DNA of 64,000 nt from Lachnospiraceae bacterium (GTDB lineage Bacteria > Bacillota > Clostridia > Lachnospirales > Lachnospiraceae): the NCBI GenBank assembly GCA_014239155.1, contig JAAZZQ010000035.1, forward strand, positions 1 to 64,000, in the 5' to 3' direction. Positions 12,546-51,797 of this stretch are shown here, piece by piece (within the stretch, counting starts at the first letter, position 1; every line of letters begins with the position of its first letter). The translations under genes and the position numbers were made by a program. The notes beneath the pieces were generated by a model. That model did no database searches. It saw nothing but the letters and a program-made list of their open reading frames with translations, and was not told the DNA's origin.

Positions 12546-12645
12546 ACATTCCCCGTTATCTAAAGTTTATCACAGCACAAAGAAATTCTCAATCAACAAG
12601 CTATTGAAACCAGACACGGAACTCAACAAAATTAATATATTATTC

Positions 12646-12800
12646 GTAACAGTTCAGCCTTTGGCTTCCTGTTACGAGCATCAAGCCGTGCATAATCGCT
12701 TCGCGGTGTCAAAGCCACGTACCGTGGCTTGATGCATCTCAACTACTACGCTTTCCCACGGACTTTGCAGCGCAATGCAAAGTCCTATCTGAACTGTTAC
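12646..12800. repeat. Palindromic mobile element copy E1 (155 bp)
   Basis: The element starts GTAACAGTTCAG and ends CTGAACTGTTAC, a perfect 12-bp terminal inverted repeat. It is flanked by perfect 8-bp direct repeats TATTATTC (12638-12645, 12801-12808). Inside are three foldbacks: GTAACAG/CTGTTAC at the left end, GCATCAAGCC/GGCTTGATGC in the middle, and GGACTTTGCA/TGCAAAGTCC near the right end. No ORF. Confidence 0.85.
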
Positions 12801-12811
12801 TATTATTCCTC

Positions 12812-12848
12812 AAAAAAAGAGCAGGTCCTCACACAAAAGAACCTACTC
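12812..12848 (-). terminator. Rho-independent terminator of the galactan operon
   Basis: An 11-bp stem with two mismatches (819-829 with 838-848, window base 12000) is followed on the minus strand by seven T. It lies about 70 bases past the zinc-ribbon gene, the last gene of the operon. Confidence 0.8.
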
Positions 12849-12920
12849 CTATCTTTATTTAAAATTTATATATTTAGGAATTGCTAATACATAAAATACA
12901 ATTTATCTGTAAGCAGTTCC

Positions 12921-13139
12921 TTAATCAAAATCAAACTTTGTAAATCGTTTTGCTCTGTCAAGATAACGGAATCGTACCATCTCATTTTTTTCAAGTACGT
13001 CCTCCTCCGTTCCTCTGTACTGGCAGCGGATACAGCTATAGATTCCTGTATCTTTATTGTAAAACATATCGATGTCGAGGTCTCGCATAAAGCAGGATGG
13101 ACATCTATAATTTAATTTGCCTTTTCCAAGTTGAGCCAT
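12921..13139 (-). CDS. Small zinc-ribbon protein
   Basis: The 72-residue protein contains CPSC and CIRC, 20 residues apart, a four-cysteine zinc ribbon as found in small nucleic-acid-binding or rubredoxin-like proteins. The acidic/basic C-terminus (RYLDRAKRFTKFDFD) has no known motif. The start overlaps the end of the upstream gene by 28 bases and has a strong AAGGAGGT site inside it, so translation is probably coupled. Its role in a galactan operon is unknown. Confidence 0.75.
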   Translation of the reverse strand: MAQLGKGKLNYRCPSCFMRDLDIDMFYNKDTGIYSCIRCQYRGTEEDVLEKNEMVRFRYLDRAKRFTKFDFD

Positions 13140-14971
13140 GTTGCAAATACCTCCTTATCAGAAATTGTCTTCTTGTAGCCAAGTTTAAACATCGGTGAGA
13201 ATGCGTATCCCTCCTCAATATAGCCAAGTGCCTTATCAGAAGCAGTAAGGGAAACCTTTGTCTCAATTGCTGGAATCACTGCGCTCACTGCGCTTGCACC
13301 GTCAAGCTTCGCATCGCGGCATCTATATTCATAATTGATTGTCTCGCCGCCTTCTCCTTCACATGCAAGTGTAATACCTGTCATATCCTCAGGATACTCT
13401 GTTGTGCCATAACATGCTGTAATATATTCATCAAGTGTAATCTCAGCAGAAGGGTCGCTGATTTCAAGAATATTTCTTTCAATCTTAATATTAGAAGCGC
13501 CCTCCTCAAAATACTCTTTTGTCTGAAGCTTTACTGTAACGCCATTAAATTGAATCTCAACAGGATCAAGCGTTAAGATACGTGTCTTTTTGCCGTCAAT
13601 CACTTCCTCTGAAAAATGACTGTGTGTCGGGCAGAGGCAAAGGTCAACTTCCTCACCTTTATATGAAAGTTTTGCGCTTCTTACTGTGCCAGCTCCCGCA
13701 TAGTGTGTAAAATATCCTGCGCGGTACTTTTCTTGAATTAAAAACGGATAAGAAGCGTCTTGCACATGTGGCGTGCCAATGCCAACAGGCCAATTTAGTT
13801 TTGCCACATAAGGGCGCAAGTCCACAATTGCACCACCTTGATCCATGTTGACGCAAGCTCTCATATAAGGGTCGCAATACCAGAACAATTGTTTGTCAGA
13901 GCCATAAAGAATATCTCTCCAAGGTGCACATTCTGGCTCATTGTAATTTCCTGCGTTGACGCCCTTCTTTTCTCTATAGTAATCGGCAAACTCTGCCATT
14001 GTCATATCAATTAATTTGCCTTCTTTTTTCAAATCACCATAGTACTTACAGCCATCACTGTAGGATTTATACAAAAGCTCATACGGCTGCTCCCAGCGCC
14101 CCATTTTATTCATCCAACCCGGTCCAACAAACATCATATTATAGGAATATCCATTGTTATATTTTGCAAGGTCGCGATACTGGTCAATCAAATTGTAGAG
14201 ATATGGATACTCCCATGTTTTGGTGTCATAAATCATACCGCGAAGCACATTCTGTGGGTGCGTACCAAAGTTGGAACCATTTCCATCATAGCACGCAATC
14301 AAATCTCTGGAAAGATGCGGAATTGCAACAATCCCAGAATCCTCCTCCGCATTTGCCGCCGGTGCATGGGTATTTTGTTTTGATGGAATCCACGGTGCCC
14401 ACGGACCGCCGTCAAACAATGTGTACCAAGAGTTATTGCAGGTATGATACGCTTTTGGTCCTTCTTCCCAACAGGTCGCAACTGCACATTTTACAGTTGG
14501 GTATTTTTCTTTAATATAGTTTGTGAGTTCCGCATCCATATAGTAAGAGCCTGTTGACTCTGGATAGAAGCCAAATTTGTCATGGAATTTCTCAAAAACA
14601 TCATTGACAATTGCCTTTTTGTCCTCCATTGAGAACATCCAAATACAAAAATCCTTTGTCTTGTATTTTTCGCGAAATTCCTCACAGGGAAGTCCAAGCA
14701 AAGAAAGTGCAATCTCATCTCCGTATTCCTCATGGTCATGCTTTGCAATTTCCACTGCCTCATCATTAAATAATGAAGCATAAGTCATCTGAATTGTCAC
14801 TTTAAGACCGTTTTCATGTGCCAGTCTCTGTTGTGTCTTAAAAATATCGAGTGACTCTGTTAAGAGTGCTTTATCTCCAATATCCTCTTCCTTTCCCTGC
14901 CCCGTAACTGTGGCAGAATACTCCGGTACCATCTCCGGACGATGGATAATGTTTACAACAAATTTATCCAC
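13112..14971 (-). CDS. Unrecognised 619-residue protein, possible barrel enzyme
   Basis: I do not recognise this family. The N-terminal half (FVVNIIHRPEMVPEY, NGLKVTIQMTYASL, HDHEEYGDEIALSLLG, GFYPESTGSYYMDAEL) reads like a polysaccharide-deacetylase or GH57-like alpha/beta barrel with acidic and His residues that could bind a metal. The C-terminal third is beta-rich. No signal peptide is present, so it is cytoplasmic. The start is GTG at 14971, with AAGGAGG 8 bases upstream; the longer frame to 15016 would overlap lacZ and lacks a site. Its place 25 bases after lacZ suggests that it acts on galactose-containing oligosaccharides, perhaps as a new glycosidase or esterase; this is inference. 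Confidence 0.7.
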   Translation of the reverse strand: MDKFVVNIIHRPEMVPEYSATVTGQGKEEDIGDKALLTESLDIFKTQQRLAHENGLKVTIQMTYASLFNDEAVEIAKHDHEEYGDEIALSLLGLPCEEFREKYKTKDFCIWMFSMEDKKAIVNDVFEKFHDKFGFYPESTGSYYMDAELTNYIKEKYPTVKCAVATCWEEGPKAYHTCNNSWYTLFDGGPWAPWIPSKQNTHAPAANAEEDSGIVAIPHLSRDLIACYDGNGSNFGTHPQNVLRGMIYDTKTWEYPYLYNLIDQYRDLAKYNNGYSYNMMFVGPGWMNKMGRWEQPYELLYKSYSDGCKYYGDLKKEGKLIDMTMAEFADYYREKKGVNAGNYNEPECAPWRDILYGSDKQLFWYCDPYMRACVNMDQGGAIVDLRPYVAKLNWPVGIGTPHVQDASYPFLIQEKYRAGYFTHYAGAGTVRSAKLSYKGEEVDLCLCPTHSHFSEEVIDGKKTRILTLDPVEIQFNGVTVKLQTKEYFEEGASNIKIERNILEISDPSAEITLDEYITACYGTTEYPEDMTGITLACEGEGGETINYEYRCRDAKLDGASAVSAVIPAIETKVSLTASDKALGYIEEGYAFSPMFKLGYKKTISDKEVFATWLNLEKAN

Positions 14972-14996
14972 TTTTCTTTCCTCCTTTTTTGCATTT

Positions 14997-17900
14997 TTAT
15001 ATTCCTTTAAAATCAAAAGATAATACTAACTTTTGCGTTGCATCTAGCAAATATTCCTCATGCGTTCTTGCTCCCCAGCTATCATCACCTGCCACGCCCA
15101 TCTGTTTTAGAGCAATGCGCGCCACTGTGTAATAAACAGGCGGTAATTCATAGACATGTGCAGCATTTTCCAACTCATGTGGTGTGTACGGCAGCACATT
15201 TACGCTCAAATCGTTTCCTGTAAAACGAATACCGCGCCCCTTGTTGTCTGTGATGTCTACACTGCGCACTCCTGTGTGATTGCCGCACTCCTGCGGAACA
15301 AGATATTCTGCCAGATTATCTTTTACTTTTTTATGATATATTCCCAACTTACCACCCTTCTCACGGTCGCAGTAAGTATCCGCTGGGCCAAGCCCATACC
15401 ATGTCAGATTTTCTAAATCTGCATCAAATTTGAACAACATACCAAACTCAGGTATGTCTGTAATATTCTTTGGCGCTTCGTATTCCAATGTGGTGTTGAT
15501 TGTTCCATCTTTTGTCACTTTATAAGTCACAAAGCATTCCGATTCAGGAATTGTGGGCAGTACATAGCAATAACGAACAACGACATTTGTATCATTTTGG
15601 GTGACAACAGCCGGCTTAGACTGTTGATATAAACTTGCTGTTTTCCACTGCGCATAGCGATATGGCATTCGATTGCCGCAGTCGTTATCTGTCGGTGCGC
15701 GCCAGAAATTTGGTTTTGGAATTGCTTTTATCAGTTCTCTTCCCGCATACACATAAGAAACCAGACCTTTTCCATCTTTGTCAAACAAAGCTTCAAAGTG
15801 CATTCCGCGCACCCCAATATTATAAGTGCCATCCGCAATTTCAAACATGGGTATGTCTGCCATATTGGATTGCTCCTCTGTGTTCTTTATTGTATACACA
15901 CCCTGTCCAAAGGCAACCTCATGACCGCGTTTTGCCCAAAGCGTATCATACAATAACACAAAACTTATAGTCACAACATACTCACCACTCTTAACGGCTT
16001 TCCACCGCGCATCATCACTCCACGGCGTCATATATCCAAACACAGGCAATTTATAAACCTTTGCAGAAAGCGGTTCTACTTCTGTGATCACTGTCACTTT
16101 TGCAAGTTCCTCTCCGTCTCGTGCTAACGTGACAATACACTCATAACTTGACGTATTCGTAAACAAATTTTTGTTGATAACTTCAAAACTGTCACCTTCT
16201 ACTCGAATCTGTATATTTTGATAGTTAAACTTCACTTCCTGCATTTTAGGAGACGGCAATCTATTTCCACCATAGACAATACCATTTCCACTAAAATTAT
16301 AATCGCATGGTCTGTCGTCAAAATCACCACCATATCCAAGCACTTCATTTCCATATCTATCCTTGTGGTAAATTGACTGGTCTACGTAATCCCAAATAAA
16401 TCCTCCCTGAAACAGTGGTTCCTCATCTGTCAAATCTGTATACTTATGCATAGCGCCACAAGAATTTCCCATTGCATGTGTATACTCACACAGCAGCATT
16501 GGCTTTGTTCTGTTCTCCGCTAAAAATTTCTTAATGGAATCCACACTTGGATACATTTGACTTTCCATATCCGAAGTGTCGTTGTAGCGTCTATCATGAT
16601 AAACTCCTTCATAGTGAACAAGTCTTGTGCTATCTAATTCATGGAACTTTTGCGACATTGCATGAATAACAGAACCGCCAAACGATTCATTTCCACAGGA
16701 CCAAATTAAGATAGATGGGTGATTCTTGTCTCGCTCATACATAGACTGAACTCTGTCTAACAAGAGCGGTTCCCAATCTTTCCTATCGCCCGGAATTACC
16801 TGTTCTATTGGCAATTTCCCTCGATTAGTCATATCCCAAATTCCGTGCGATTCCAAATTGCACTCATCAATAAGATACAACCCATATTCATCACAAAGCG
16901 CATACAATTTAGAGTCATTTGGATAATGACTTGTTCGGATTGCATTGATATTGTTCTGTTTCATAGTAATAATATCTTGCAACATCTCATCATAATTTGG
17001 CACTCTGCCAAAACGCCCGCCAAACTCATGTCTGTCAACACCTTTAAACACAATGCGTTTCCCATTTAAAGTCATAATGCCATTGTCCAGCGCAAAACGC
17101 CGAAAGCCTACTTTTTGTGGTATGATTTCCACCACATTTTCATCTGCATCATACACTGTAATTAAGAGCTCATACAACATTGGAGACTCCGCGCTCCAAA
17201 GCATTGGCTTATCAACTGCTATATGAATCTCTTGATTTTCACCGTTTGTAAGCTCCACTTTTGTCTCAGCTATTTCCGTACAATCTGAAAGTGTAAGCAC
17301 TGCGCTGGCAGCTTCAGAGGTCTTTTTTATCACATTTAGAGAGACCACCAAATCTGCTTGGGTATAATCCGCATTCAAATCTGTCCGAATCTTTATATCA
17401 CGAATGTGCGTGTCTGGTATTGCATATAAATAGACACCCCGAAAGATTCCTGAAAACCGGAAGAAATCTTGGTCCTCGCACCAACTTCCACTGGTCCATT
17501 TATACACTTGAACTGCCAGTTTGTTCTCTCCCTCTCGCAATACATCTGTCAATTCAAACTCTGATGGTGTAAAACTGTCCTCACTGTATCCAATATAACT
17601 ATCATTACACCAAAGTGCAAATCCGCTCTCAACTCCTTGAAACGATATAAACACACGTTTATCCTTCAATTGCGTTGGCACTGTAAAATATTTGACATAG
17701 TTTGCTGTGGGGTTAAATCGTGTTGGAATTTCACCAGGCACAATCAACTCATGCCCATCCCACGGGTATTGCACATTCACATATTGAGGTTTATCATATC
17801 CCTCAAGCTGTATGTGTGCTGGAACATAAATATCCTCCCAGTCTCGACAATCTACCTCCGTTTTATAGAAGTCCTTTGGAGACTCTTCTATATTTTTTGC

Positions 17901-18050
17901 ATATCGAAACTTCCAAATACCATCGAAAGACTTTTTTAGACTTTGAATATTTTGTACAAATTCAGCCTCACTCACATAATACTTATGGTCAGAGTGTGCC
18001 GCTATTTTATTTTCCCCATAAAATAAGGGATTTTTCATCTTTTCTTGCAT
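14997..18050 (-). CDS. lacZ: Beta-galactosidase, GH2, LacZ type
   Basis: This is a full-length LacZ-type enzyme (1017 residues; E. coli LacZ has 1023) that hydrolyses terminal beta-galactosides in the cytoplasm. The GH2 sugar-binding, immunoglobulin-like and barrel domains are followed by the small-chain domain. The acid/base Glu lies in CNLESHGIW and the nucleophile Glu in LLCEYTHAMGNS. GAGGATAAAAA precedes the ATG. It is the fifth gene of the galactan operon and would release galactose from the oligosaccharides made by GH53. Confidence 0.95.
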   Translation of the reverse strand: MQEKMKNPLFYGENKIAAHSDHKYYVSEAEFVQNIQSLKKSFDGIWKFRYAKNIEESPKDFYKTEVDCRDWEDIYVPAHIQLEGYDKPQYVNVQYPWDGHELIVPGEIPTRFNPTANYVKYFTVPTQLKDKRVFISFQGVESGFALWCNDSYIGYSEDSFTPSEFELTDVLREGENKLAVQVYKWTSGSWCEDQDFFRFSGIFRGVYLYAIPDTHIRDIKIRTDLNADYTQADLVVSLNVIKKTSEAASAVLTLSDCTEIAETKVELTNGENQEIHIAVDKPMLWSAESPMLYELLITVYDADENVVEIIPQKVGFRRFALDNGIMTLNGKRIVFKGVDRHEFGGRFGRVPNYDEMLQDIITMKQNNINAIRTSHYPNDSKLYALCDEYGLYLIDECNLESHGIWDMTNRGKLPIEQVIPGDRKDWEPLLLDRVQSMYERDKNHPSILIWSCGNESFGGSVIHAMSQKFHELDSTRLVHYEGVYHDRRYNDTSDMESQMYPSVDSIKKFLAENRTKPMLLCEYTHAMGNSCGAMHKYTDLTDEEPLFQGGFIWDYVDQSIYHKDRYGNEVLGYGGDFDDRPCDYNFSGNGIVYGGNRLPSPKMQEVKFNYQNIQIRVEGDSFEVINKNLFTNTSSYECIVTLARDGEELAKVTVITEVEPLSAKVYKLPVFGYMTPWSDDARWKAVKSGEYVVTISFVLLYDTLWAKRGHEVAFGQGVYTIKNTEEQSNMADIPMFEIADGTYNIGVRGMHFEALFDKDGKGLVSYVYAGRELIKAIPKPNFWRAPTDNDCGNRMPYRYAQWKTASLYQQSKPAVVTQNDTNVVVRYCYVLPTIPESECFVTYKVTKDGTINTTLEYEAPKNITDIPEFGMLFKFDADLENLTWYGLGPADTYCDREKGGKLGIYHKKVKDNLAEYLVPQECGNHTGVRSVDITDNKGRGIRFTGNDLSVNVLPYTPHELENAAHVYELPPVYYTVARIALKQMGVAGDDSWGARTHEEYLLDATQKLVLSFDFKGI

Positions 18051-18175
18051 TTTTTATCCTCACGGCAGGTTTTAATAACGTGTGTAAAATCATTATAACA
18101 TCTGCCCTTTCTTTTATGTTTTTATAATCACCTTTATTTCGTGCAATTTTATTCTCTATCTTATTCTCTATCCTG

Positions 18176-19102
18176 CTACCATCCTTTTAAGGCTGATATT
18201 TTATACTCCAACAGTTTTCCTTCGTGATTGTCTGGGCGTTTTTTCCACTGATAAGGAGACGTTCCTATAACGCGCCTAAAATTCCGGTTAAACGTTGAAG
18301 GCGTGATAAATCCTACTCTTTCTGCCACATCTTCCATGCTAATATCTGTCTTATCAATCAAGTCACACGCTTTGCGAATCCGCACAAAGTTTACATACTC
18401 AACAGGTGTCATATTCATTTTTTCCTGAAAAACACGGCGAAAATGCGTCTCACTCATATGACATTCATTTGCCAAATCCGCAATCTTAAAATTATTTGCA
18501 TAATTTTTATCCACATATTCAATTGCATTTTCCAATTGCAAACTGTTGTTCTTTTCACAAGACTGCACAATCTCTTTTCCATTAAACCGCGCAATCTCAA
18601 ACAACAGCGAATACACAAGACCGCCAACACACTCCCGATAATAGGTGCTTTTATCTTGCATTTCCTCAAAAATTGCGCGAATCAAAGTCACAATCATTGG
18701 ATTCTCTTCAACTTTTATAAAGAATGCTCTGCTGTTAATTGCATCAAGAAACGCTCTAATTTCCTGTGCAGATTTGCCCTGCTGCCTTAGTATATCCGTT
18801 GGATTAATATATAGATACTCCCAGAATGCCATAATATCTGTGTCACTTCTGGTTATATGCAGAAAATTTGCTGGGATACAGGAAACCATACCCGCTCCAA
18901 AACGGTACTGATCCTCCTCAATAATCAAATCCCCATCTCCATAATGGCAGTATCCAATTTCTATTAGATTGTGAAAATGCATCTTGTCAATATTTTCGCC
19001 GTAAACCTGTATCCACTTTTTTCCCATTAACGCAAGAACTGTTTCATCCTGCGGTACTTCATAAAACCGAAACTCCACAGACCCCTTTTTCTTCTTCGCC
19101 AT
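18176..19102 (-). CDS. AraC-family transcriptional regulator
   Basis: An N-terminal cupin-like sugar-sensing region (about 1-150) is followed by two C-terminal helix-turn-helix motifs (IADLANECHMSETHFRRVF and MEDVAERVGFITPSTFNRNF), the standard AraC layout. The start is ATG at 19102, because the sequence just before it is a strong site (CTGGAGGAAATAAG); the ATG at 19129 overlaps the LacI gene. It lies between the LacI and lacZ genes, with a 125-bp gap before lacZ where it may act as an activator. Confidence 0.87.
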   Translation of the reverse strand: MAKKKKGSVEFRFYEVPQDETVLALMGKKWIQVYGENIDKMHFHNLIEIGYCHYGDGDLIIEEDQYRFGAGMVSCIPANFLHITRSDTDIMAFWEYLYINPTDILRQQGKSAQEIRAFLDAINSRAFFIKVEENPMIVTLIRAIFEEMQDKSTYYRECVGGLVYSLLFEIARFNGKEIVQSCEKNNSLQLENAIEYVDKNYANNFKIADLANECHMSETHFRRVFQEKMNMTPVEYVNFVRIRKACDLIDKTDISMEDVAERVGFITPSTFNRNFRRVIGTSPYQWKKRPDNHEGKLLEYKISALKGW

Positions 19103-19125
19103 CTTATTTCCTCCAGAAATATTTT

Positions 19126-20127
19126 TCAAAAAAGTGTGGATTCTCGAATAACCAGTTCATACCCCAGCAGTGTTTTTGACTCCACTTTTATCCCCTGAAT
19201 ATACTGTAACAATATTTTACATGTAAGTGCACCAAGCGCTCTATCGTCAAACCAAAGCGAAGTGACCGCCGGTTTTGCATGTTTTAACAATGTGCTGTCA
19301 TAGAATGATGCAATCTGCATTTGTTGTGGTACTTGAATCTTTTTTTCTGCCAAAACTTGTAATACTACAGAACAGACAAAATCATCCATGCAGACAATCG
19401 CCCCAACACCTGCCCGAACCAATTTTTCTGTCGCGGACACAACTTTTTCCACGCTGTCACAATTTTCTATACACAATGCCGCATTCTGTTCTATGCCAAC
19501 TGCCAAAAAAGCATCTTCGTATCCTTGCTTTCTGGTCCGATTGACAACATAGTTTTTGCTGCCGCCAATCAATCCAATTCTAGCAATTCCACTGTTTAAT
19601 ATACGACCTACCAAAGCACAACATCCTGCCCGATGATTATTGTCCACCTGCAAAATCTTTGCATCCCGCGAAGTTCCCATCATTACAAATGGAATCTTTT
19701 CTTCCTTTAAGAAAGCTGCGTTTGTGTCTTTTACCAGCGAGCGGCTAAGTATTACACCATCAACCTTTTTGTTTGCTATCATGCGCTCAAGATTTTCTGA
19801 GTGCCGACCAGTTACTGGCACAAGCATAACATCATAATCATTTGCAGACGCTTCCTCACAAATGCCCTGCATACTGTTCTGAAAAAATGGCATATCTACA
19901 AGGTTGCAATCCCCGGGAATCACCAACGCAATATTGTATGTTTTTTTCTGTGCAAGCCCTTTTGCAATTACATTTGGCTTAAAATCAGTCGCTTCAATAT
20001 AGGATAAAACCCGCTGCCTTGTCTCATCGCTAATACGCCCTTTGCCAGAGATTGCACGGGATACAGTGGTCTTAGAAACATGGAGCGCATCTGCCACATC
20101 CGCAATTGTAATCTTGGAATCTTTCAT
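19126..20127 (-). CDS. LacI-family transcriptional regulator of the galactan operon
   Basis: The N-terminal helix-turn-helix reads KITIADVADALHVSKTTVSRAI, followed by a hinge and a periplasmic-binding-protein-like sensor domain. The start at 20127 is chosen because it sits two bases after the galT stop, which suggests translational coupling; an ATG at 20139 lies inside galT. The palindrome at 22874, just downstream of the operon promoter, is its likely operator. The inducer is probably galactose or a galacto-oligosaccharide. Confidence 0.87.
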   Translation of the reverse strand: MKDSKITIADVADALHVSKTTVSRAISGKGRISDETRQRVLSYIEATDFKPNVIAKGLAQKKTYNIALVIPGDCNLVDMPFFQNSMQGICEEASANDYDVMLVPVTGRHSENLERMIANKKVDGVILSRSLVKDTNAAFLKEEKIPFVMMGTSRDAKILQVDNNHRAGCCALVGRILNSGIARIGLIGGSKNYVVNRTRKQGYEDAFLAVGIEQNAALCIENCDSVEKVVSATEKLVRAGVGAIVCMDDFVCSVVLQVLAEKKIQVPQQMQIASFYDSTLLKHAKPAVTSLWFDDRALGALTCKILLQYIQGIKVESKTLLGYELVIRESTLF

Positions 20128-20128
20128 T

Positions 20129-21640
20129 CTACAGACCATCTATAAACCGCTGGAATGCTGCTCTGCCAGCCGCATCTCGCTTGTAGACACCTGCGTGCTC
20201 AAGCACTTTTCCAAACACAATTCCAACTTCTTTCTGAATTATATCCATCACATTCTCTTTTGTGACTTCATGATACTTAGGTAAAAATGCATCCACCCAA
20301 TCTGCATGTTTCTCCAGCACTTCATTTTTGCGCAGGTCTTCTTTTGCAAGGATTGCATCTGCCAGCTGTTCCAACTCCAATTTTAATCTTGACGGCAGCA
20401 CTGCCAACCCCATCACTTCAATTAAACCAATATTTTCTTTTTTAATATGATGTAACTCTGCATGGGGGTGATACACACCAAGCGGATGCTCTTCTGTTGT
20501 GATATTGTTTCTAAGCACCAAATCCAACTCATAATTCTCTCCGCGCTTTCTAGCAATTGGTGTGATTGTATTGTGTGGCTCTCCATCTGTCTCAGCAAAA
20601 ATAAATACAGATTCATCTGTATAACCGCGCCACTTTGCAAGAATCACATCTGCAAGCGCTATAATTCGATTATAGTCTTTATGCGAAAGTCTGATAACAG
20701 ACATTGGCCACTTGACAATGCCTGCTGCAATATCTTCAAAACCTTTCACAGTAAATTCCTTTTCAATCGGCGCCTTTGCCATTGCAAATTCATAGTTTCC
20801 ACCCTGAAAATGATCATGGCTTAAAATAGATCCCCCCACAATTGGAAGATCTGCATTAGAACCTACAAAATAATGTGGAAACTGCTCTACAAAGTGAAAG
20901 AGTTTCACAAAGGTGTCATGCTCAATTTTCATAGGAATATGTTTGCTGTTAAATACAATACAGTGTTCATTGTAATATACATATGGTGAATACTGAAATC
21001 CCCATTGATTCCCCTGAATCGTAACTGGAATCACTCGATGGTTCTGTCGCGCAGGGTGATTTACGCGCCCAGCATACCCCTCATTTTCCATACAGAGCTG
21101 ACATTTTGGATAACCGCTCTGCTTTGCGCTTTTCGCTGCCGCAATCGCTTTTGGATCTTTCTCTGGTTTGGATAAATTAATGGTAATATCCATCACCCCA
21201 TATTCTGTGTCTGCCCTCCATTTTCTATCCCGTGCAATGCGATAGCGCCGAATATAGTCTGTATTCTGACTAAAAGTATAATACCAATCAGTCGCCGCCT
21301 TTGCTCCCTTCTCGTCATAAAGCTTCTGGAATTGTCGAATAACCTCAGACGGACGTGGAACCAGCATTCCCATAATTCTTGTGTCAAACAAATCCCGATA
21401 CACAATACTGTCATCAGGAAGGATTCCTTTTTCCACCGCATAGTCAAGCATTTGTTTCAGAAGTCCCTCCAAATCAAACTCCGCTGGATTAGCGATTGTT
21501 GTTGCACTCTCTGGCGCATCATAATCCTCTAACCCGAACAGCTCCAAAAGTGTGTTAGTCGTGTAAATCCTGTCAGCTTCCGCAAGAAGACCGGCTGCAA
21601 TTCCATAGTTTACAAGAGTTGCAATGTTTTCTGTAATCAT
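20129..21640 (-). CDS. galT: Galactose-1-phosphate uridylyltransferase, class II
   Basis: This enzyme of the Leloir pathway moves UMP between UDP-glucose and galactose-1-phosphate. The 503-residue length and motifs such as GGSILSHDHFQGG and HHIKKENIGLIEVMGLAVLP identify the Gram-positive class II GalT. It follows GH53 by 36 bases and is coupled to the LacI gene. galK and galE are not in the window. Confidence 0.93.
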   Translation of the reverse strand: MITENIATLVNYGIAAGLLAEADRIYTTNTLLELFGLEDYDAPESATTIANPAEFDLEGLLKQMLDYAVEKGILPDDSIVYRDLFDTRIMGMLVPRPSEVIRQFQKLYDEKGAKAATDWYYTFSQNTDYIRRYRIARDRKWRADTEYGVMDITINLSKPEKDPKAIAAAKSAKQSGYPKCQLCMENEGYAGRVNHPARQNHRVIPVTIQGNQWGFQYSPYVYYNEHCIVFNSKHIPMKIEHDTFVKLFHFVEQFPHYFVGSNADLPIVGGSILSHDHFQGGNYEFAMAKAPIEKEFTVKGFEDIAAGIVKWPMSVIRLSHKDYNRIIALADVILAKWRGYTDESVFIFAETDGEPHNTITPIARKRGENYELDLVLRNNITTEEHPLGVYHPHAELHHIKKENIGLIEVMGLAVLPSRLKLELEQLADAILAKEDLRKNEVLEKHADWVDAFLPKYHEVTKENVMDIIQKEVGIVFGKVLEHAGVYKRDAAGRAAFQRFIDGL

Positions 21641-21676
21641 AAAAATCCTCCTTTTATTTATATCTCTTTTTTTCTT

Positions 21677-22801: not shown

Positions 22802-22873
22802 CCTTTTTCTCCAATCTTATTTTTTAAGCGATAGGAATCTATCTTATTGTCATACAATCGCATATAAATTGTT

Positions 22874-22891: not shown

Positions 22892-22900
22892 TCTGAATTT

Positions 22901-28890: not shown

Positions 28891-29871
28891 CTACTCCATA
28901 CTTGCCATTAAGCGGTCAACCGTTGTAAATGCCAAACCTGTAACAGTATCTGCGCATCCATAATAAATCGCAATCCTGCCTGTGGCAGCATCTGTCAAAG
29001 TCGCACATGGAAATACCACATTGGGCACATCTCCCATGCATTCATACAATTCATGCGGTGCCAAAATATAATTTCTTGTTCTCTTTAATACCTTCCACGG
29101 CTTTTCCAAATCTAGTAGTGCACATCCCATGCGATACACATAGCCGTTACAAGTGGTAATAACACCATGATAGATTAACAGCCATCCTTCATCTGTCTCA
29201 ATTGGAACACTACCTGCACCAATTTTAGTACACTGCCATGCAGAGTAATCCCCTTTGATTGCTCCCATTACAAAGCGATGACATCCCCAATATTTCAAAT
29301 CAGGACTCTCGCTTAAGAAAATATCACCAAATGGTGTGTGTCCATTGTCACTTGGGCGACTCAACATATAGTAATTGCCGTCAATTTTTCGCGGAAACAG
29401 AACACCATTTCGATTAAATGGCAAAAATGCATTTTCCATCTGGTAAAATGTCTGAAAATCAAACGTATAACCTACCCCGATTGTAGGATACTCATGGTAT
29501 CCGTTACACCATGTAATATAATACCGATCCTCCAGAAAACAAACTCTTGGATCATAGCGAAAATCGCGCTTTGCCACCTCTGGGTCCGCACCCTGAAAAA
29601 TAATTGGGTCATCTGATATATCCCAGTGAAGACCATCTTTGCTAAATCCTACAAAAATATCCATGCTGATGGATTTGCTATCGCAGCGGAACACCCCTGC
29701 ATATCCATCTTGAAATGGAACCACTGCACTGTTAAAGATACTGTTAGAATTTTTTGTTGCAAAGCGGTCAATAATTGGGTTCTTGTCATAGCGCCACACT
29801 GGCTGCTTACTGTCTGTCGGCGACTCCTGCCACGGCATGTTGGGTAGATCTTTTCCTATTATTTTTGCCAT
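28891..29871 (-). CDS. GH130 beta-mannoside phosphorylase, copy 1
   Basis: GH130 enzymes use phosphate to split beta-mannosides. The 326-residue sequence (NMPWQESP...[40 protein letters not shown]) resembles the UhgbMP/BT1033 group that acts on Man-beta-1,4-GlcNAc, the N-glycan core. The likely catalytic Asp is Asp107 in YDPRV. It would give mannose-1-phosphate and GlcNAc in the cytoplasm. A paralogue about 88% identical by eye lies at 59767. The mannobiose/mannosylglucose enzymes of mannan pathways are the alternative, but no mannanase or epimerase is in the window. Confidence 0.88.
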
Positions 29872-37431: not shown

Positions 37432-37455
37432 AATTTACATTACTCTATACAAATA

Positions 37456-40428: not shown

Positions 40429-40467
40429 ATCTATAATCCTTTCTGAAATCATTCTATCATTTTATTT

Positions 40468-41689: not shown

Positions 41690-41721
41690 AATATATCCCT
41701 CCTAAATTTTCAATCCTTCTC

Positions 41722-42738: not shown

Positions 42739-42766
42739 GCTTATTACCTCCTTTTTCTTCTTTAAA

Positions 42767-45181: not shown

Positions 45182-45225
45182 TTCCGTTTCCTCCTAAATT
45201 ATAAATTATGACGAAAATTTTTTTG

Positions 45226-45283
45226 AAATGTAACTAAAATACTTTACATTTTGTTAATCATACTATAACAACTTACTTTACAT
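45226..45283. promoter_or_regulatory. Operator-like repeats around the transglutaminase promoter
   Basis: AAATGTAA (45226) and TTACATTT (45244) form an inverted repeat with a 10-base gap. ACTTTACAT occurs twice (45241-45249, 45275-45283), one copy lying in the promoter spacer. The spacing suggests a regulator binding site, distinct from the CG-centred LacI operators. Confidence 0.4.
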
Positions 45284-45290
45284 ATTGCAA
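45262..45290 (-). promoter_or_regulatory. Promoter of the transglutaminase operon
   Basis: On the minus strand TTGCAA (-35) and TATAGT (-10) are separated by exactly 17 bases, about 80 bases before the ATG. Confidence 0.65.
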
Positions 45291-45534
45291 GTAGAATTTC
45301 TTATTTCTTTTATTTTTTAGTAAATATGTCTATTTTGTGTGCGCAACGCCAATTTATCTACGCCGCTATCCCTTCAATATTTGTTACTATTCACAATTTC
45401 TATGGTATAAATAGTAATATAAAATAACAATCCTACTCTTACAAAATGTGTATTTCAACAAACATTTCTTTCTACTTTATGATTGTTTTTTCTACCTTTT
45501 TATGGTATGGTAAACATATAATATTACTACTTTT

Positions 45535-45814
45535 GTAACAGTTCAGGCAAGCTGGCCTGTTACTGCAAAAATCCATTGAAAATCGTCTTTGGCAATGGGA
45601 TTTTTGCTCTCAAACTTTATGTTGTAACAGTTCAGCCCTTGGCTTCCTGTTACAGACATCAAGCCATACAAAACCACTTCGTGGTGGTTTGATGTATCTC
45701 TGCCACTACACAGTTTTACGGACTTTGCAGTAAATGCAAAGTCTTAGACTGAACTGTATTTTACGCTTTCTTACGGTCTTTGCAAGACCTGCAAAGACCT
45801 ATCTGAACTGTTAC
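45535..45814. repeat. Composite palindromic mobile element copy E2 (280 bp)
   Basis: The outer ends are GTAACAGTTCAG and CTGAACTGTTAC, flanked by perfect 8-bp repeats CTACTTTT (45527-45534, 45815-45822). It contains two left-end hairpins (45535, 45625), a GCAAAAATCC/GGGATTTTTGC stem (45565-45607), a CATCAA/TTGATG stem, and two right-end stems (from 45720 and from 45774). This arrangement reads as one element inserted inside another. Confidence 0.85.
45625..45758. repeat. Probable inner element nested in E2
   Basis: The segment from GTAACAGTTCAG to CTGAACTGTA has the full layout of the E1/E3 type. The flanking bases (TTTATG left, TTTACG right) could be a worn target duplication, but this is weak. 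Confidence 0.5.
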
Positions 45815-45907
45815 CTACTTTTTACATTTATAAATTAATACTTGCTGCACACCGCTATTCGTGTGTTTCATTGATTAAATGATGTACCAGCAGATAGGAG
45901 TTTTTCT

Positions 45908-46915
45908 ATGGAAAAAGTGACAATGAATAATATTGCAGAGGCACTCAATATTTCGAGAGTGACTGTCAGCAGGGCATTCAATAACCAGACGGGAGTGTCC
46001 GAGATCTTAAAAGAACAAATCTTTACAAAAGCAAGCGAAATGGGATACACCAAATTTCCCTATCCGTTTGTGAAACCACCTGTCCAGAAAGAGCACACTG
46101 TTTCTCTCATTGTTTCACGACCTGATTCTACCCTATTCTGGACTAATATTATCCACCGCATGGCACAAGAACTTTTAAAATACAATATCAATCTCTTATA
46201 TACTTATGTTCCTTCCATCTACACCAAGGACTTTATGCTGCCTTCTATTTTGTTAAACGATAATGTAGATGGCATTATCACAGTAAATGTGTACGCCCCT
46301 GAAATTTTGGAGATGATTAATTGTCTGCCGATTCCTAAAATTTTTCTTGACACAGTTCCCATGCTGTCTGAACAAAAATTGACAGGGGACCTAGTCTTAA
46401 TCGAAGGATACCAAACAGAATGGAATATCACCCAAATTCTTATCCAAGAAGGACATACAAATATCGGATTTCTGGGAGATATTAATTATGCGCGCACCAA
46501 CATGGAGCGTTATCGCGGCTACTGCGACTGTATGCAAAAACATGGGCTTCCAATCCGTTCCGAATACTGTCTCACCAAGTCCATCGGTGTTTTCTCCTAT
46601 GACCGAGAACTGCGTACCTTTCTGGATTCTTTGACCATCTGGCCGACCGCATTTGTATGTGTCAACGACTATGTAGCGCACTTTGTACAGATTTACATAG
46701 ATGAGAAGTCAAAACAATTGCCACATCCGATTGTACTGACGGGCTTTGACAACACGGGTGAGTTCACCAATATCGCGGGCCGCATTATCACAGCCAATGT
46801 ATCAACCGAATTGCTCGGCAAACGCCTCGCACTACAGTTATTATTTCGCACACAACATTCAGATGCTCCCTACGAACTAACTTTTATCGCATCATCAGTT
46901 GTTCGTTTTCTATAA
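45908..46915 (+). CDS. LacI-family transcriptional regulator
   Basis: The N-terminal helix-turn-helix MNNIAEALNISRVTVSRAFN is followed by a sugar-sensing domain with VCVNDYVAHFV and LTGFDN motifs. TAGGAG lies about 9 bases before the ATG. It is the only plus-strand gene between the transglutaminase operon and the sugar kinase and is the best candidate to control the N-glycan genes. Confidence 0.88.
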   Translation: MEKVTMNNIAEALNISRVTVSRAFNNQTGVSEILKEQIFTKASEMGYTKFPYPFVKPPVQKEHTVSLIVSRPDSTLFWTNIIHRMAQELLKYNINLLYTYVPSIYTKDFMLPSILLNDNVDGIITVNVYAPEILEMINCLPIPKIFLDTVPMLSEQKLTGDLVLIEGYQTEWNITQILIQEGHTNIGFLGDINYARTNMERYRGYCDCMQKHGLPIRSEYCLTKSIGVFSYDRELRTFLDSLTIWPTAFVCVNDYVAHFVQIYIDEKSKQLPHPIVLTGFDNTGEFTNIAGRIITANVSTELLGKRLALQLLFRTQHSDAPYELTFIASSVVRFL

Positions 46916-46938
46916 AATCAAACGCCTGTGTGCAGAAA

Positions 46939-46972
46939 AAAGGAGACAACGCTATATGTCGTCATCTCCTTT
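46939..46972. terminator. Convergent terminator, LacI / sugar kinase
   Basis: AAAGGAGA and TCTCCTTT pair, with further pairing inside (ACG/CGT). It lies between convergent genes and has T-rich ends on both strands. Confidence 0.7.
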
Positions 46973-46983
46973 CATCTTGTTTT

Positions 46984-48042
46984 CTATCGATTCATTTCAA
47001 GCTGTGGTCCTGTGGCATGATGATTCCTGATGATTCCATCAATCTCTTTTAAATCAGAGGAAGGTAAGTCTCCCGGAATCGTATTTTTAACCGCTGCCGT
47101 GGCATTTCCATACTCCATTGCCTTCGTGCAGTCCATATTGTGCGCAAGCAATCCATACAGTGCACCAGATATATAGGCGTCACCGCTTCCAATCCGATCC
47201 ACCACGTCAATATTTTCATATGCTGGCTCTTGCACATAACAGTCATTGATTGCATCATAAATGCAAGAACCAAAAGAATGAACCTTTGGAGAATGCACTA
47301 TGCGCTGTGTTGATGCAACCACGCTAATCTTATAGTCCTTTGTGAAACTTTTCATCATCTCCTGCACAGTGCCTTCTTTTTTAAAGGTTAGTCTGGCAGT
47401 ATCTTCCGAACAGAAAAATACATCTACATAAGGAAGAATCTGCTCAATGCACGCTTTTGCCTCCTCACCTGTCCATAGATTTCCTCTAAAATTTACATCA
47501 AAGGAAATCAAAGTACCGTTTTCCTTAAAGCGCTTAATCATCTCAACCGCAGTATTTCTCGTCTTCTCTCCAAGTGCTAGCGTAATTCCCGTCGTGTGAA
47601 AACAACGTGCAGAAGTAAACATTTTCTCTGGAAAATCATCAATGGAAATCTCCGTAAATGCAGTATTTTTTCTGTCATAAACAACATTTGGTTTTCTTGG
47701 ATGTGCACCATATTCATAATAATAAATACCCAATCTGGAATCTTTTGTGTTATCATATACTAGATAATCGTCACTCACACCGCAAAAACGCACTCTGTTT
47801 TGAATATACCTTCCCAAATCATTTGCAGGAACCCGTGAAATAATTCCTGTCCTTAACCCTAACAGCGAAGTTCCTGACACCACATTTAATTCCGCGCCAC
47901 CCGCCTGCTTCTGAAACACATCTCCTCTAGTAAGCCGCTCGTTTACTGGCGGCGAAAGACGAAGCAAAATCTCTCCTAATGCCAGCAGGTCAAATTCTCG
48001 TCTCTTGAATACTTCCTTATTTGTATTTGCGTTTGTATCCAT
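46984..48042 (-). CDS. kdgK: PfkB-family sugar kinase, KdgK-like
   Basis: The 352-residue cytoplasmic kinase has the PfkB start (FDLLALGEILLRLSPP, GGAELNVVSGTSLLG) and the ATP/substrate signature DVVDRIGSGDAYISG with the catalytic Asp. Sequence style fits 2-keto-3-deoxygluconate kinase, but fructose or another ketose is possible. No aldolase is adjacent. A stem-loop leader lies upstream at 48085. Confidence 0.82.
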   Translation of the reverse strand: MDTNANTNKEVFKRREFDLLALGEILLRLSPPVNERLTRGDVFQKQAGGAELNVVSGTSLLGLRTGIISRVPANDLGRYIQNRVRFCGVSDDYLVYDNTKDSRLGIYYYEYGAHPRKPNVVYDRKNTAFTEISIDDFPEKMFTSARCFHTTGITLALGEKTRNTAVEMIKRFKENGTLISFDVNFRGNLWTGEEAKACIEQILPYVDVFFCSEDTARLTFKKEGTVQEMMKSFTKDYKISVVASTQRIVHSPKVHSFGSCIYDAINDCYVQEPAYENIDVVDRIGSGDAYISGALYGLLAHNMDCTKAMEYGNATAAVKNTIPGDLPSSDLKEIDGIIRNHHATGPQLEMNR

Positions 48043-48084
48043 ATGCTCAGCTCCTTATCTCTGAAACGTTCCTAGTATTTCATT

Positions 48085-48131
48085 CCGTCAGAAATTAGAA
48101 TGATACAACATACAACCTTAATTTCTGTCGG
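48085..48131 (-). promoter_or_regulatory. Stem-loop in the leader of the sugar kinase gene
   Basis: CCGTCAGAAATTA (48085-48097) pairs with TAATTTCTGTCGG (48119-48131), 12 of 13 pairs, around a 21-base loop. It lies 43 bases before the kinase ATG and could be a regulatory RNA structure or an operator pair. Confidence 0.45.
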
Positions 48132-48299
48132 GATCGGGTACTAGAATATTTCTTGCTCCTTACTGATGTAAGCTCTTACATTGTATATATTAACATACAA
48201 AAACAAAAATATCAAATAAAAATCTTTATGAATTTCACAATTTTATCACAATTAGATAACAATTGAAACACAAATTCATTTTATAGTATAACCATAACA

Positions 48300-48436
48300 G
48301 CAACAGTTCAGCCTTTGGCTTCCTGTTGCAGACATCAAGCCATGCATAATCGCTTCGCGATGGCTTGATGTATCTCTACTACTACACGTTTTTACGGACT
48401 TTACAGTAAATGCAAAGTCCTAGACTGAACTGTAAC
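48300..48436. repeat. Palindromic mobile element copy E3 (137 bp)
   Basis: It starts GCAACAGTTCAG and ends CTGAACTGTAAC. The flanks are CCATAACA and CCATAGCA, a target duplication with one change. The first hairpin is GCAACAG/CTGTTGC, a compensated change against GTAACAG/CTGTTAC in E1. Middle and right stems match E1. Confidence 0.8.
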
Positions 48437-48586
48437 CCATAGCAACGCTAATTTAAAAATGTTATTGACATTTTTGCTCGGCGTAGAAACCATGACATAA
48501 AACCAATTTGCACGCCTGCAATAAAACAGCAAAAATATTGTAATGATAAATATAACATTCTTTTAATTTTGAAGGGAGATTCTATT

Positions 48587-50104
48587 ATGTACGAAAACAA
48601 CAATAACTACTCACAGCAGTCAAATAACGCAGGAAGCACTGGCAATGGATATCCAGAGTATTATTATTCTACAGGTGCTCCAAACATCAACTACGAGCAG
48701 ACGCAGCGCCCTCCAGTAGACGCGCCAAAAATAAAACAAAAAAAGACAAACGGTTTTGGCAAAAAAGCAGTGTCTGTTGTCTGTCTTGGTCTAGTATTTG
48801 GCATTTCTGCTGGCGCAGCTTTTAGCATTCCTGCATCGATTGCCACAAAAGAATTAAAGCAAGCCAAACTTGAAATGCAGCAGATGCAAGATAGTCAGAG
48901 CGCTACTTCTAGCAAGCCATCGCTCACAACTACAGCGGACTCTCTGACAACCTCCAACGCACTTCACAACAGTAATACATCTGCTACCGTGTCTGCAATT
49001 GTTGACAGTTGTCTGCCAAGTGTTGTATCAATTACCAACAAAGGTGTAACAGAAGTTCGCACAATGTTTGGTACTTACCAACAAGATACAGAAAATAGTG
49101 GTTCTGGCATTATAATTGGCGAGAACGACACAGAACTCTTAATTGTGACAAACTATCATGTTGTGTCAGGAAGCAATGAACTGAGCGTTGTATTTAGCTA
49201 TGATGAGGACAGCGATGAACCTTCACTGGTCAGCGCACGCGTCAAAGGATATGAAGCAGACAAAGATCTTGCTGTTATCTCCGTTTCTCTTGACGACATC
49301 ACAGATGAAATGCGATCTAAAATTAAAATTGCAACTGTCGGGGATTCTTCCAATCTAGTGCTTGGGCAAGAAGTTGTAGCAATCGGTAATGCGCTTGGCT
49401 ATGGTCAGTCTGTTACGACAGGCATTATTAGTGCACTTGGTCGAAATGTCACTGTCTCCGACGATAATGGCAGCAGTATTACAAACAAACTGATTCAGAC
49501 AGATGCAGCAATCAATCCGGGTAATTCTGGCGGTGCACTCTTAAATATGAACGGAGAACTGATTGGAATCAATTCCGTAAAAGTTTCCTCTAGTTCTGTT
49601 GAAGGCATGGGATATGCAATTCCAATCTCAGATGTTCAATCCATTATTGAAGAACTTATGCTAAAGGAGACGAGAGATGTGGTTTCAGAAGAAAGGCAAG
49701 GCTATTTGGGTATTCAGCCGATTGATGTGACAAATGATATTTATGAGACTTATGGTATGCCAGTTGGTATCTATATTAACACCGTTTATGAAAACTCCCC
49801 AGCGGAAGCTGCCGGGCTTGTCAAGGGCAATATCATTACAAAATTTGATGGTCAAACCGTGAAAACCCGGGAAGAGCTGATGTCTCTGCTCACTTATTAC
49901 AGTGCTGGTGAGACAGTCGATGTCGTTGTGATGGTACAAAGTTCAGAGGGCTATGTCGAAAAAACTGTTCAGTTAACACTTGGCACAAAAGATATTTTCG
50001 GAGATGACGCCGATAACACACAATCCAATCAACAGCGTCAGGAATCCAGAGAAGACGAAAATGGATACTTTAATCCATTTGGATCATTCTGGTCAATTCC
50101 TTAA
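48587..50104 (+). CDS. HtrA/DegP-like membrane-anchored serine protease
   Basis: After an Asn/Gln/Tyr-rich cytoplasmic tail of about 55 residues comes one membrane helix (VVCLGLVFGISAGAAFSI). The trypsin-like domain follows with His in VTNYHVV, Asp in DKDLAVI and Ser in NPGNSGGAL, then one PDZ domain near the C-terminus (about 380-470). It is an envelope quality-control protease. The start at 48587 has AAGGGAG 8 bases upstream; the TTG at 48569 lies before that site. Confidence 0.9.
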   Translation: MYENNNNYSQQSNNAGSTGNGYPEYYYSTGAPNINYEQTQRPPVDAPKIKQKKTNGFGKKAVSVVCLGLVFGISAGAAFSIPASIATKELKQAKLEMQQMQDSQSATSSKPSLTTTADSLTTSNALHNSNTSATVSAIVDSCLPSVVSITNKGVTEVRTMFGTYQQDTENSGSGIIIGENDTELLIVTNYHVVSGSNELSVVFSYDEDSDEPSLVSARVKGYEADKDLAVISVSLDDITDEMRSKIKIATVGDSSNLVLGQEVVAIGNALGYGQSVTTGIISALGRNVTVSDDNGSSITNKLIQTDAAINPGNSGGALLNMNGELIGINSVKVSSSSVEGMGYAIPISDVQSIIEELMLKETRDVVSEERQGYLGIQPIDVTNDIYETYGMPVGIYINTVYENSPAEAAGLVKGNIITKFDGQTVKTREELMSLLTYYSAGETVDVVVMVQSSEGYVEKTVQLTLGTKDIFGDDADNTQSNQQRQESREDENGYFNPFGSFWSIP

Positions 50105-50105
50105 T

Positions 50106-50133
50106 CGAGTAGGGAAGTAATCTTCCCTACTCG
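50106..50133 (+). terminator. Perfect hairpin after the protease gene
   Basis: CGAGTAGGGAAG pairs perfectly with CTTCCCTACTCG around TAAT, one base past the stop codon. It lacks a T-run; the terminator at 50195 follows. Confidence 0.55.
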
Positions 50134-50194
50134 CCACACGACCTGCGCGCCACTTTAGTGGCATATTTCCTTTGCGCAGGTCTGCGCATAAAAC

Positions 50195-50221
50195 AAAAAG
50201 CAGGCTGTACGCCTGCTTTTT
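50195..50221. terminator. Convergent terminator, protease / PfkB kinase
   Basis: AAAAAGCAGGC and GCCTGCTTTTT form an 11-bp stem with T-runs on both strands. It overlaps the kinase stop codon. Confidence 0.85.
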
Positions 50222-51305
50222 ATAATTCTATTCTCGTTCTCTCCACAAGCGCAGGAATACACAATTGTGGATTTACTGCCATTTTTCCCTCGCCTGTAAT
50301 ACTCAAAGCGGCCAATCCAATTTTTGCCATCTGGCGGATACTCAAATGCTTCATATATCCAAGCACCACGCCTGCCATAAACGCATCATTTGCTCCATTG
50401 CAATGAATATGCTGTCCTCCAGAGCTATTTACCATAAACTGCTCCTCGTCACAAGCACAGTAAACACCGCCTTTTTCTGGCAGAATAAAAACATTCTTCA
50501 CACCTTTTTCCAAAATAATATCCGCCGCCCGTTCCAGCGAATCTTTATCCTGAATCCGAATACCACTCAAAACCTCTGCCTCCGCCTCATTTGCCATCAC
50601 AACGCAAAGTCTGTCAAGAACTGGAAGCAGTTTCTCCGCTCTCTTACGCGACTCTGCGGAGGCAAACACTGGCGCTCTGCACTTTTCACAAAGATATTGA
50701 ATTGTCCCTGCTGGTATATTCGTATCCAATATGATCATGCGCGACTTATTTAACAGTTCCATCTTAGAAGAAATAAATTTCGTTGTCAGCTTTTCATAAA
50801 TCCGCATATCCGATACAGAAAATTTTATATTCCCCTTTTCATCTGCTATATACAGATAAACCGGCGTGGACTCGCCGGATGTCTTTAAGGAATGTGCAAT
50901 GTCTATGCCAAGTTCCTCACAACTTTCAATAATACTGCGCGCATTGGGGTCATCGCCAATTGCGGTAATCAGTTTTACCCCTATACCAAGAAGTCTTAAA
51001 TTATGCGCTGTATTTCTTCCTGCGCCGCCAAGAGACTGTATCGCCCTTCCAGAATTAGAATCCCCTTCTGTCAGTGCTTCCTCGGGCGTTCCTCCAATAT
51101 CAATATTGGCGCTTCCAATTACTGTACAATAGCTCGGACCACTTGTGACATATCCCTTTCCAAGAATATACCCTTTTTTCATCAGATTTGAAATATGTAC
51201 TGCTGCCGATGAACGGGCAATGCCGGCCTTTGCTGCAAGTTCTTCCTGCGAGATCATTGGATTCTCTGTTATCCATTGAAATATCTGTGCCTCTCTATTT
51301 GTCAT
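50220..51305 (-). CDS. psuK: HTH-PfkB kinase fusion, pseudouridine kinase-like
   Basis: The first about 55 residues are a winged helix (MISQEELAAKAGIARSSAAVHISNLMKKGYI). The rest is a PfkB kinase with IGSANIDIGG, SLGGAGRNTAHNLRLLG and HCNGANDAFMAG. This fusion matches known pseudouridine kinases such as E. coli YeiI. The usual GAGD of the PfkB family reads GAND here. No pseudouridine glycosidase (PsuG) is next to it, so the substrate stays uncertain. Confidence 0.78.
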   Translation of the reverse strand: MTNREAQIFQWITENPMISQEELAAKAGIARSSAAVHISNLMKKGYILGKGYVTSGPSYCTVIGSANIDIGGTPEEALTEGDSNSGRAIQSLGGAGRNTAHNLRLLGIGVKLITAIGDDPNARSIIESCEELGIDIAHSLKTSGESTPVYLYIADEKGNIKFSVSDMRIYEKLTTKFISSKMELLNKSRMIILDTNIPAGTIQYLCEKCRAPVFASAESRKRAEKLLPVLDRLCVVMANEAEAEVLSGIRIQDKDSLERAADIILEKGVKNVFILPEKGGVYCACDEEQFMVNSSGGQHIHCNGANDAFMAGVVLGYMKHLSIRQMAKIGLAALSITGEGKMAVNPQLCIPALVERTRIEL

Positions 51306-51471
51306 ATAATCTCCCTCTCTGTTGTGCCTTAAAAATTATTTTCAAGTATACATTCTGCACATAAAATACAGCAAAAATACATTAAACTATCTAAATAATT
51401 GTTCGTTCTTCCTATATTGTTATCATATCACCCAAAAAAACCACTGTCAATGCAATCTATAAAGTGACTCA

Positions 51472-51605
51472 GTTACAATTCAGCCTTGCCGAATTGTAAC
51501 GCAACAAGCTATGCAAAATCGCTACGCGATGGCTTGTTGCATCTCAACCACTATGTTTTCTTACGGAATTAGCAGTAAATGCAAAGTCCTAGACTGAACT
51601 GTAAT
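51472..51605. repeat. Palindromic mobile element copy E4 (134 bp)
   Basis: It starts GTTACAATTCAG and ends CTGAACTGTAAT, flanked by perfect 8-bp repeats GTGACTCA (51464-51471, 51606-51613). The first hairpin, GTTACAATTC/GAATTGTAAC, and the middle stem, GCAACAAGC/GCTTGTTGC, both differ from E1 by compensated changes. The right stem is broken: its left arm reads GGAATTAGCAG. Confidence 0.85.
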
Positions 51606-51622
51606 GTGACTCATGCAAAAAA

Positions 51623-51755
51623 GTTACTATTCAGACAGGATTTCGCATTCACTGCTAATTCCGTGCAAAAATGTGTCACATTCAAGTAAAAATCCATCAC
51701 CAAAGGTGATTTTATATAGATTTTTACCCGTTACTGAAACGTAGTGAACAGTAAC
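51623..51755. repeat. Palindromic mobile element copy E6 (133 bp, inverted)
   Basis: Read on the minus strand it starts GTTACTGTTCA and ends CTGAATAGTAAC, the reverse orientation to E4. It has the AAAAATC-type middle stem seen in E2. The flanks GCAAAAAA and GAAAAAAT are at best a worn duplication. Its minus-strand segment 51662-51638 shares GGAATTAGCAGT with the odd arm of E4. Confidence 0.65.
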
Positions 51756-51756
51756 G

Positions 51757-51797
51757 AAAAAATCCAATACAGACCATAATCCGCATTAGATTTTTTT
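51757..51797 (-). terminator. Probable terminator of the ROK kinase gene
   Basis: AAAAAATC and AAT pair with ATT and GATTTTTT in an imperfect stem 27 bases past the ROK stop. The minus strand ends in a T-rich arm. Confidence 0.55.

Follow-up and report, generated by a model that had tools for sequence, protein, structure and literature searches.

Palindromic mini-elements of a Lachnospiraceae genome as probable miniature transposons moved in trans by IS66-family transposases

A stretch of 64,000 nucleotides from a Lachnospiraceae bacterium (assembly GCA_014239155.1, contig JAAZZQ010000035.1, positions 1 to 64,000; hereafter the window) carries several short palindromic elements flanked by 8-bp direct repeats. 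We consider these elements to be non-autonomous mini-transposons (miniature inverted-repeat transposable elements, MITEs) moved in trans by DDE transposases of the IS66 family, a reading to which we assign a probability of a little under 0.9. They would form a new family of IS66-linked MITEs, for which likeness in function and family membership agree, except that the partner transposases belong to a branch scoring below the NCBIfam cut-off for IS66. This would connect a transposase family with a repeat that is abundant and as yet unnamed in gut Lachnospiraceae.

Copies with a hairpin at one end share a plan: after the end hairpin come a long hairpin, then a linker, then a third hairpin, and the far end closes the element. 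This plan holds for the subtypes that we named A to D and F, whose hairpin sequences differ; type E (187 bp) has a different interior. Copies of mixed modules also exist (for example, L011:1754-1889 and L080).

Target duplications, an empty site, and nested insertion

In the bacterium's own genome (4.57 Mb in 89 contigs), the end motif GTWACAGTTCAG occurs 299 times at up to 1 mismatch, compared with 74 times for its reversed control, and coordinates were listed for the first 100 of the 299. A DNA search with the element at 12646 matched 44 places including itself (43 further). A preliminary description of the window had proposed looking for further copies with 8-bp repeats, and many were found: among 125 pairs of ends (up to 2 mismatches per end, 24 to 330 bp), the flanks were identical at 8 of 8 positions in 37 and at 7 of 8 in 24, giving 61 of 125 with at least 7/8. 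Shuffling the right flanks 2,000 times gave a mean of 0.48 for 8/8 and 0.92 for at least 7/8, with a maximum of 5 in each case. Within a set of 111 pairs (up to 2 mismatches in all, less than 400 bp apart, from the stretches fetched by then), exact flanking repeats were 8 bp long in 33 pairs; lengths of 2, 3, 4, and 9 were seen in 9, 3, 1, and 1 pairs, respectively, and lengths of 5 to 7 and 10 to 14 in none. The 37 perfect repeats are AT-rich, with 28% GC versus 41% for the window.

Under a looser criterion of at least 6/8 matching flanks, 78 elements were catalogued (39, 25, and 14 with 8, 7, and 6 matches), a lower bound drawn only from the stretches around hits (about 447 kb including overlaps), with at least 3 composites that overlap their own parts. 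The catalogued copies measure 27 to 314 bp, too short for a transposase gene, and thus combine the small size and lack of transposase coding capacity of MITEs with terminal inverted repeats and a target-site duplication, the latter documented by the shuffles above and by the empty site described below. All 78 lie between open reading frames (ORFs) as drawn by a crude ORF caller, and the same caller placed 54 between genes of the same direction, 14 between divergent and 2 between convergent genes, with 8 unclear (raw counts).

Insertion could be read directly from phage sequences. On a phage contig from IMG/VR (L353), a 138-bp element flanked by CACTGTAG repeats separates two ORFs (444 and 500 amino acids) that look like terminase and portal genes. 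A search with the joined flank found 2 contigs (L358 and L359) with a single CACTGTAG and no element, providing the exact empty site with one 8-bp repeat that the preliminary description had asked for. The joined flanks of L353 and the empty contigs align throughout over 792 bases, gap-free and at 98.5% identity; L358 and L359 could represent a single phage sampled twice. The corresponding search for an empty site of phage contig L350 gave no match. The hairpin-end pattern occurs in eight viral stretches, at least 2 of which (L351 and L354) resemble unrelated coding sequence, and an A-type element had no match among plasmid or phage records. The copies in phages suggest a route between hosts. 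On another viral contig, positions 11654-11683 of L356 are GTAACAGTTCAGGCATGCCTGAACTGTTAC, a perfect 30-bp palindrome consisting of two ends back to back.

Elements also insert into one another. A C-type element of the own genome with TACAAATC repeats (L009) received an A-type element with ACTGTTAC repeats in its right end; without the insert it measures 136 bp, of which 127 agree with one intact C copy and 128 with another. Insertion with 8-bp duplication and nesting is shown by these cases, and the earlier claim of real transposition of non-coding elements is borne out by the duplications, the empty site, and the nested insertion. The elements share with REP/REPIN-type palindromes spread by RAYT their palindromic form, intergenic position, high copy number, and lack of genes, but RAYT-type elements are not known to leave target duplications. 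The 8-bp duplications and the exact empty site contradict a REPIN/RAYT origin, which we regard as barely credible, and uphold the preference for a DDE transposase expressed in the preliminary description.

IS66-like insertion sequences with matching ends

IS66 elements make 8-bp duplications and have ends starting with GTAA, published as GTAAGCG/GTAACCG (PMC11946415, PMC3281130, PMC12888890). IS66 was among three families that the preliminary description had named for a DDE transposase acting in trans, and the loci described here support that proposal. A genus search for IS66 was the route to a partner, through 30 fetched loci that were scanned for ends; PF03050 (IS66) matched in 18 of 38 genus genomes. 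One of these, G123, has an insertion sequence (IS) of 2,251 bp (L253) with GTTACTGTTCAC ends and 8/8 GCTGCTTT repeats, and the right, hairpin end of the F-type copy in the window (51623-51755) is GTTACTGTTCAC as well, identical to 12 bp of the G123 ends. The 571-amino-acid protein of this IS scores 89.3 bits for the IS66 DDE domain (DDE_Tnp_IS66), versus a Pfam cut-off of 23.1 that is also exceeded in G403 (69.7 bits) and by a fragment in G145 (25.2 bits). Against the NCBIfam IS66 equivalog cut-off of 180 bits, the G123 protein reaches 167.8 and a 357-amino-acid piece from G403, truncated by the contig end, 132.5; we therefore term the G123 protein IS66-like and place it on a divergent branch. 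Beside tnpC in G123 lies an 89-amino-acid coiled-coil ORF with no family above cut-off, and no tnpA or tnpB is named at this locus, where no dedicated search for them was made.

Further IS66-like elements could be followed end to end with 8/8 repeats, 2 in the genus (L255, TATCAATA, whose tnpC contains one stop, and L272, AAGAATAG) and 2 in other genera (L334, GCCGGAAT, and L340, CAAAGCCC). The ends of all five end-to-end elements start with GTTAC and those of other loci with GTAAC. The partners resemble the IS66 family in their DDE_Tnp_IS66 domain, 8-bp duplications, and ends beginning GTWA, and differ from it in proteins that score below the NCBIfam cut-off; the window elements encode nothing.

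The GTAACAGTTCAG ends of types A, B, C, and E are linked to IS66 by a remnant in G145, a 441-bp stretch whose exact GTAACAGTTCAG ends enclose the final part of an IS66 tnpC. Used as a query against 397 family genomes, this remnant matched 26, and the four best loci (G403 twice, G338, and G351; 74-79% identity) all have exact GTAACAGTTCAG just beyond tnpC, followed in G403 by CCATGC, as in type E. Ends common to the mini-elements and an autonomous element are thus represented by exact 12-mers beside IS66 tnpC. Of 30 loci fetched from this search with the remnant, 20 have the motif GTWACWNTTCA, chosen after part of them had been seen, at up to 1 mismatch and no farther than about 130 bp from the match; 200 permuted motifs over the same loci averaged 0.61 and never exceeded 6. 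In a draw of 120 family genomes, IS66 matched in 48; none of the 30 loci fetched from this draw has GTAACAGTTCAG at up to 1 mismatch, and one holds a family IS66 with GTAAGCG ends and 8/8 repeats. The G145 fragment found no viral contig and, in 55 plasmid records, only places below 60% identity.

Two observations at such loci may be added. The 8 bases next to the IS66 end are GATTTCCG both at L306:1446-1453 and at L330:1446-1453, in the two genera of G351 and G403, which hints at one shared insertion site or at transfer. In G135, a stretch of 876 bp (L249:326-1201) has IS66-like ends, keeps only the last part of tnpC, and has no matching flanks; it is perhaps a step from IS to mini-element.

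Several findings weigh against IS66 as the mobilizer. PF03050 has no match in the own genome, in the near relative G155, or in G133, the genome richest in ends of five counted. Since the own genome yielded no IS66 transposase, its copies look orphaned, and the closest own A copies are nonetheless only 2 of 137 bases apart; copies so nearly identical are young, so their source must be a lost partner, an unassembled partner, or transfer. G155 does hold two weak pieces of an IS66-like remnant with GTTACTTTTCAC ends, in an assembly rated 86% complete and 7% contaminated. The preliminary description had suggested looking for a full IS with the same ends, and this search succeeded for IS66-like elements with matching ends but recovered no intact IS with exact GTAACAGTTCAG on both sides, the G403 copies running off contig ends. 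Further, the G145 remnant has no matching flanks, and the GTWACWNTTCA motif, besides the manner of its choice, is absent at up to 1 mismatch from 10 of the 30 loci. Finally, the search among 8-bp families covered IS66 and ISL3 only.

The absence of a detected IS66 transposase from the own genome and G133, and the coverage of IS66 and ISL3 only, also speak for a different account, in which another DDE family that duplicates 8 bp (IS1595, IS256, ISL3, or an unknown one) moves the elements and the likeness of the ends to IS66 reflects convergence or shared ancestry of ends only. Against it, the four nearest relatives have exact 12-mers next to tnpC and the G145 remnant is bounded by them, and we find this account quite improbable. 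ISL3 itself was rejected as mobilizer: its transposase has 0 matches in the own genome and occurs in 6 of 38 genus genomes, and the fetched loci show no end motif. At the ISL3-like loci of G121 (L187 and L192-L202), two ORFs, one of about 338 and the other of about 289 amino acids, divide the DDE domain between them, and both parts are present at six places.

Hairpins, solo copies, and covariation of the stems

A simple test found the hairpin GTAACAG...CTGTTAC (28 to 30 bp) as one end in 57 of the 78 catalogued copies; 8 more are solos of 27 to 42 bp, and 13 are others. An alignment of the hairpin-end elements of 125 to 175 bp (50 of the 57) has its three hairpins paired in 89.4% of cells, and 17 of 28 pairs are changed on both sides. 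This covariation was equalled in 0 of 500 shuffles, which do not respect relatedness.

Strong covariation, together with the position of every catalogued copy between ORFs of the crude caller, is what would be expected if the hairpins were kept since the elements act as RNAs or regulators, mobility being secondary. Among 1,657 pairs of the 57 elements, however, in-stem mismatches comprise 7 G-T and 14 A-C, and the missing excess of G-U on the plus strand among such strongly covarying stems favors a DNA-level cause over RNA; read on the other strand the counts are 14 versus 7, a lean too small for a claim. Inverted loops (L114; L013:1502-1655) are expected of DNA hairpins, and no Rfam family was found in the window except a tRNA. 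We consider a family-wide RNA or regulatory role improbable, and single copies could still have one. The inverted loops and a paired double change in the copy at 48300 fit template switching between the arms of a palindrome.

Solos of 29 bp with perfect repeats occur at 6624 in the window and in L031 and L081, the 29 bases being identical in the latter two and the perfect repeats around them different, and four further solos of 27 or 29 bp have flanks matching at 6/8 or 7/8. Conceivably, the first hairpin, which in 28 to 30 bp holds both transposase ends back to back, is itself mobile as a 29-bp element insertable by IS66 TnpC, and the larger types are such hairpins with captured hairpin modules that repeated template switching keeps matched. 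We judge this unlikely; two deletions from full copies would give the same pattern as a mobile 29-bp unit for the identical hairpins of L031 and L081. If true, it would place the hairpin among the smallest transposable elements known.

Proposed mechanism

Under the IS66 reading, the transposase would recognize ends of about 12 bp that resemble GTWACWGTTCAG, and their staggered joining to AT-rich targets between genes would create the 8-bp duplications. IS66 TnpC would bind and move the elements in trans, and the partner may have been lost from the lineage of the window or may only have passed through it, with phages probably helping to spread the elements. Stems could be kept matched by palindrome correction at the DNA level, by template switching between the arms, and modules may be swapped by recombination. 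The 29-bp solos would mostly be deletions between direct repeats CTGTWAC, one in the first hairpin and one at the far end. The family offers a clean system for asking what minimum of DNA suffices for an IS66 transposase and whether hairpins can come to covary through DNA repair rather than through RNA selection; if they can, methods that take covariation as evidence of RNA might go astray.

Relatives and known systems

The A element was matched in 26 of 38 genus genomes. In five chosen genomes, G121, G140, G133, G120, and G150, exact ends were counted 47, 26, 189, 8, and 9 times, compared with 3, 3, 0, 4, and 0 for the reversed controls. Larger non-coding kin, bounded by the same ends and by perfect 8-bp repeats, occur in G133 as well (L204-L211; for example, 200, 304, 346, 371, and 572 bp). 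A 2,750-bp pair of exact ends in the same genome was rejected as an IS, with ordinary-looking genes inside and no matching flanks.

MITEAba12, MITEPsy1, and a Cardinium MITE are likewise short and non-coding, with inverted ends and target duplications, whereas the three-hairpin modular plan, covarying stems, 29-bp solos, and IS66-type ends set the present family apart. A 161-bp MITE beside an IS66 remnant has been reported, but with 4-bp repeats (PMC12888890). Within the open-access literature searched, we found no IS66-derived MITE family.

Pneumococcal BOX elements are modular, stem-loop-rich, intergenic repeats. The present elements resemble them in these general traits, as BOX elements are commonly described, and occupy a different host.

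Copies in the window

Read directly from the sequence, all six copies listed in the preliminary description were present where it had placed them, and the flanking repeats agreed with its account, four copies having perfect 8/8 repeats and one 7/8, while the sixth, called worn, measured 6/8. The window copies sit between longer ORFs. The first is a D-like 29-bp solo hairpin at 6624-6652 (no strand assigned), with CTTTGACA repeats at 6616-6623 and 6653-6660 (8/8), and the second an A-type three-hairpin element of 155 bp on the plus strand at 12646-12800, with TATTATTC repeats at 12638-12645 and 12801-12808 (8/8).

The stretch 45535-45814 on the plus strand had been described as a single 280-bp element; its 8/8 flanks stand (CTACTTTT at 45527-45534 and 45815-45822), but it proved to be two elements, one within the other. 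The outer one is a B-type element of 136 bp without the insert, and the nested one an A-type element on the plus strand at 45624-45759 with imperfect repeats of its own, whose end coordinate is approximate because its right end is worn. When the insert and one repeat were removed by script, the remaining 136 bp were identical at 119 positions to an intact B copy elsewhere.

An A-type element of 137 bp lies at 48300-48436 on the plus strand, with flanks CCATAACA/CCATAGCA (7/8); in the alignment, the paired double change in its first hairpin reads GCAACAG/CTGTTGC. It is followed by a D-type element of 134 bp at 51472-51605 on the plus strand, with GTGACTCA repeats at 51464-51471 and 51606-51613 (8/8), and by the F-type element of 133 bp at 51623-51755 on the minus strand, with its hairpin end at the right and worn flanks GCAAAAAA/GAAAAAAT (6/8). 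Throughout the window, GTAACAGTTCAG occurs 17 times at up to 2 mismatches, versus 4.9 on average and 13 at most in 100 shuffles, and no clear second end could be made out at the spots at 4531 and 14789 (2 mismatches each).

G155, a near relative, matches window positions 301-64000 at 99.4% identity and holds all 6 window copies, five of them unchanged in both element and 8-bp flanks and the sixth with 151 of 153 bases identical; since all are occupied, G155 provides no empty site. Positions 6641-6652 of the 29-bp solo provide the stop codon of a minus-strand ORF (6641-7393). Elsewhere in the window, 28913-29871 and 59789-60747, brought to light through G155, appear to be paralogous stretches of about 80% identity, each lying over an ORF of 326 amino acids.

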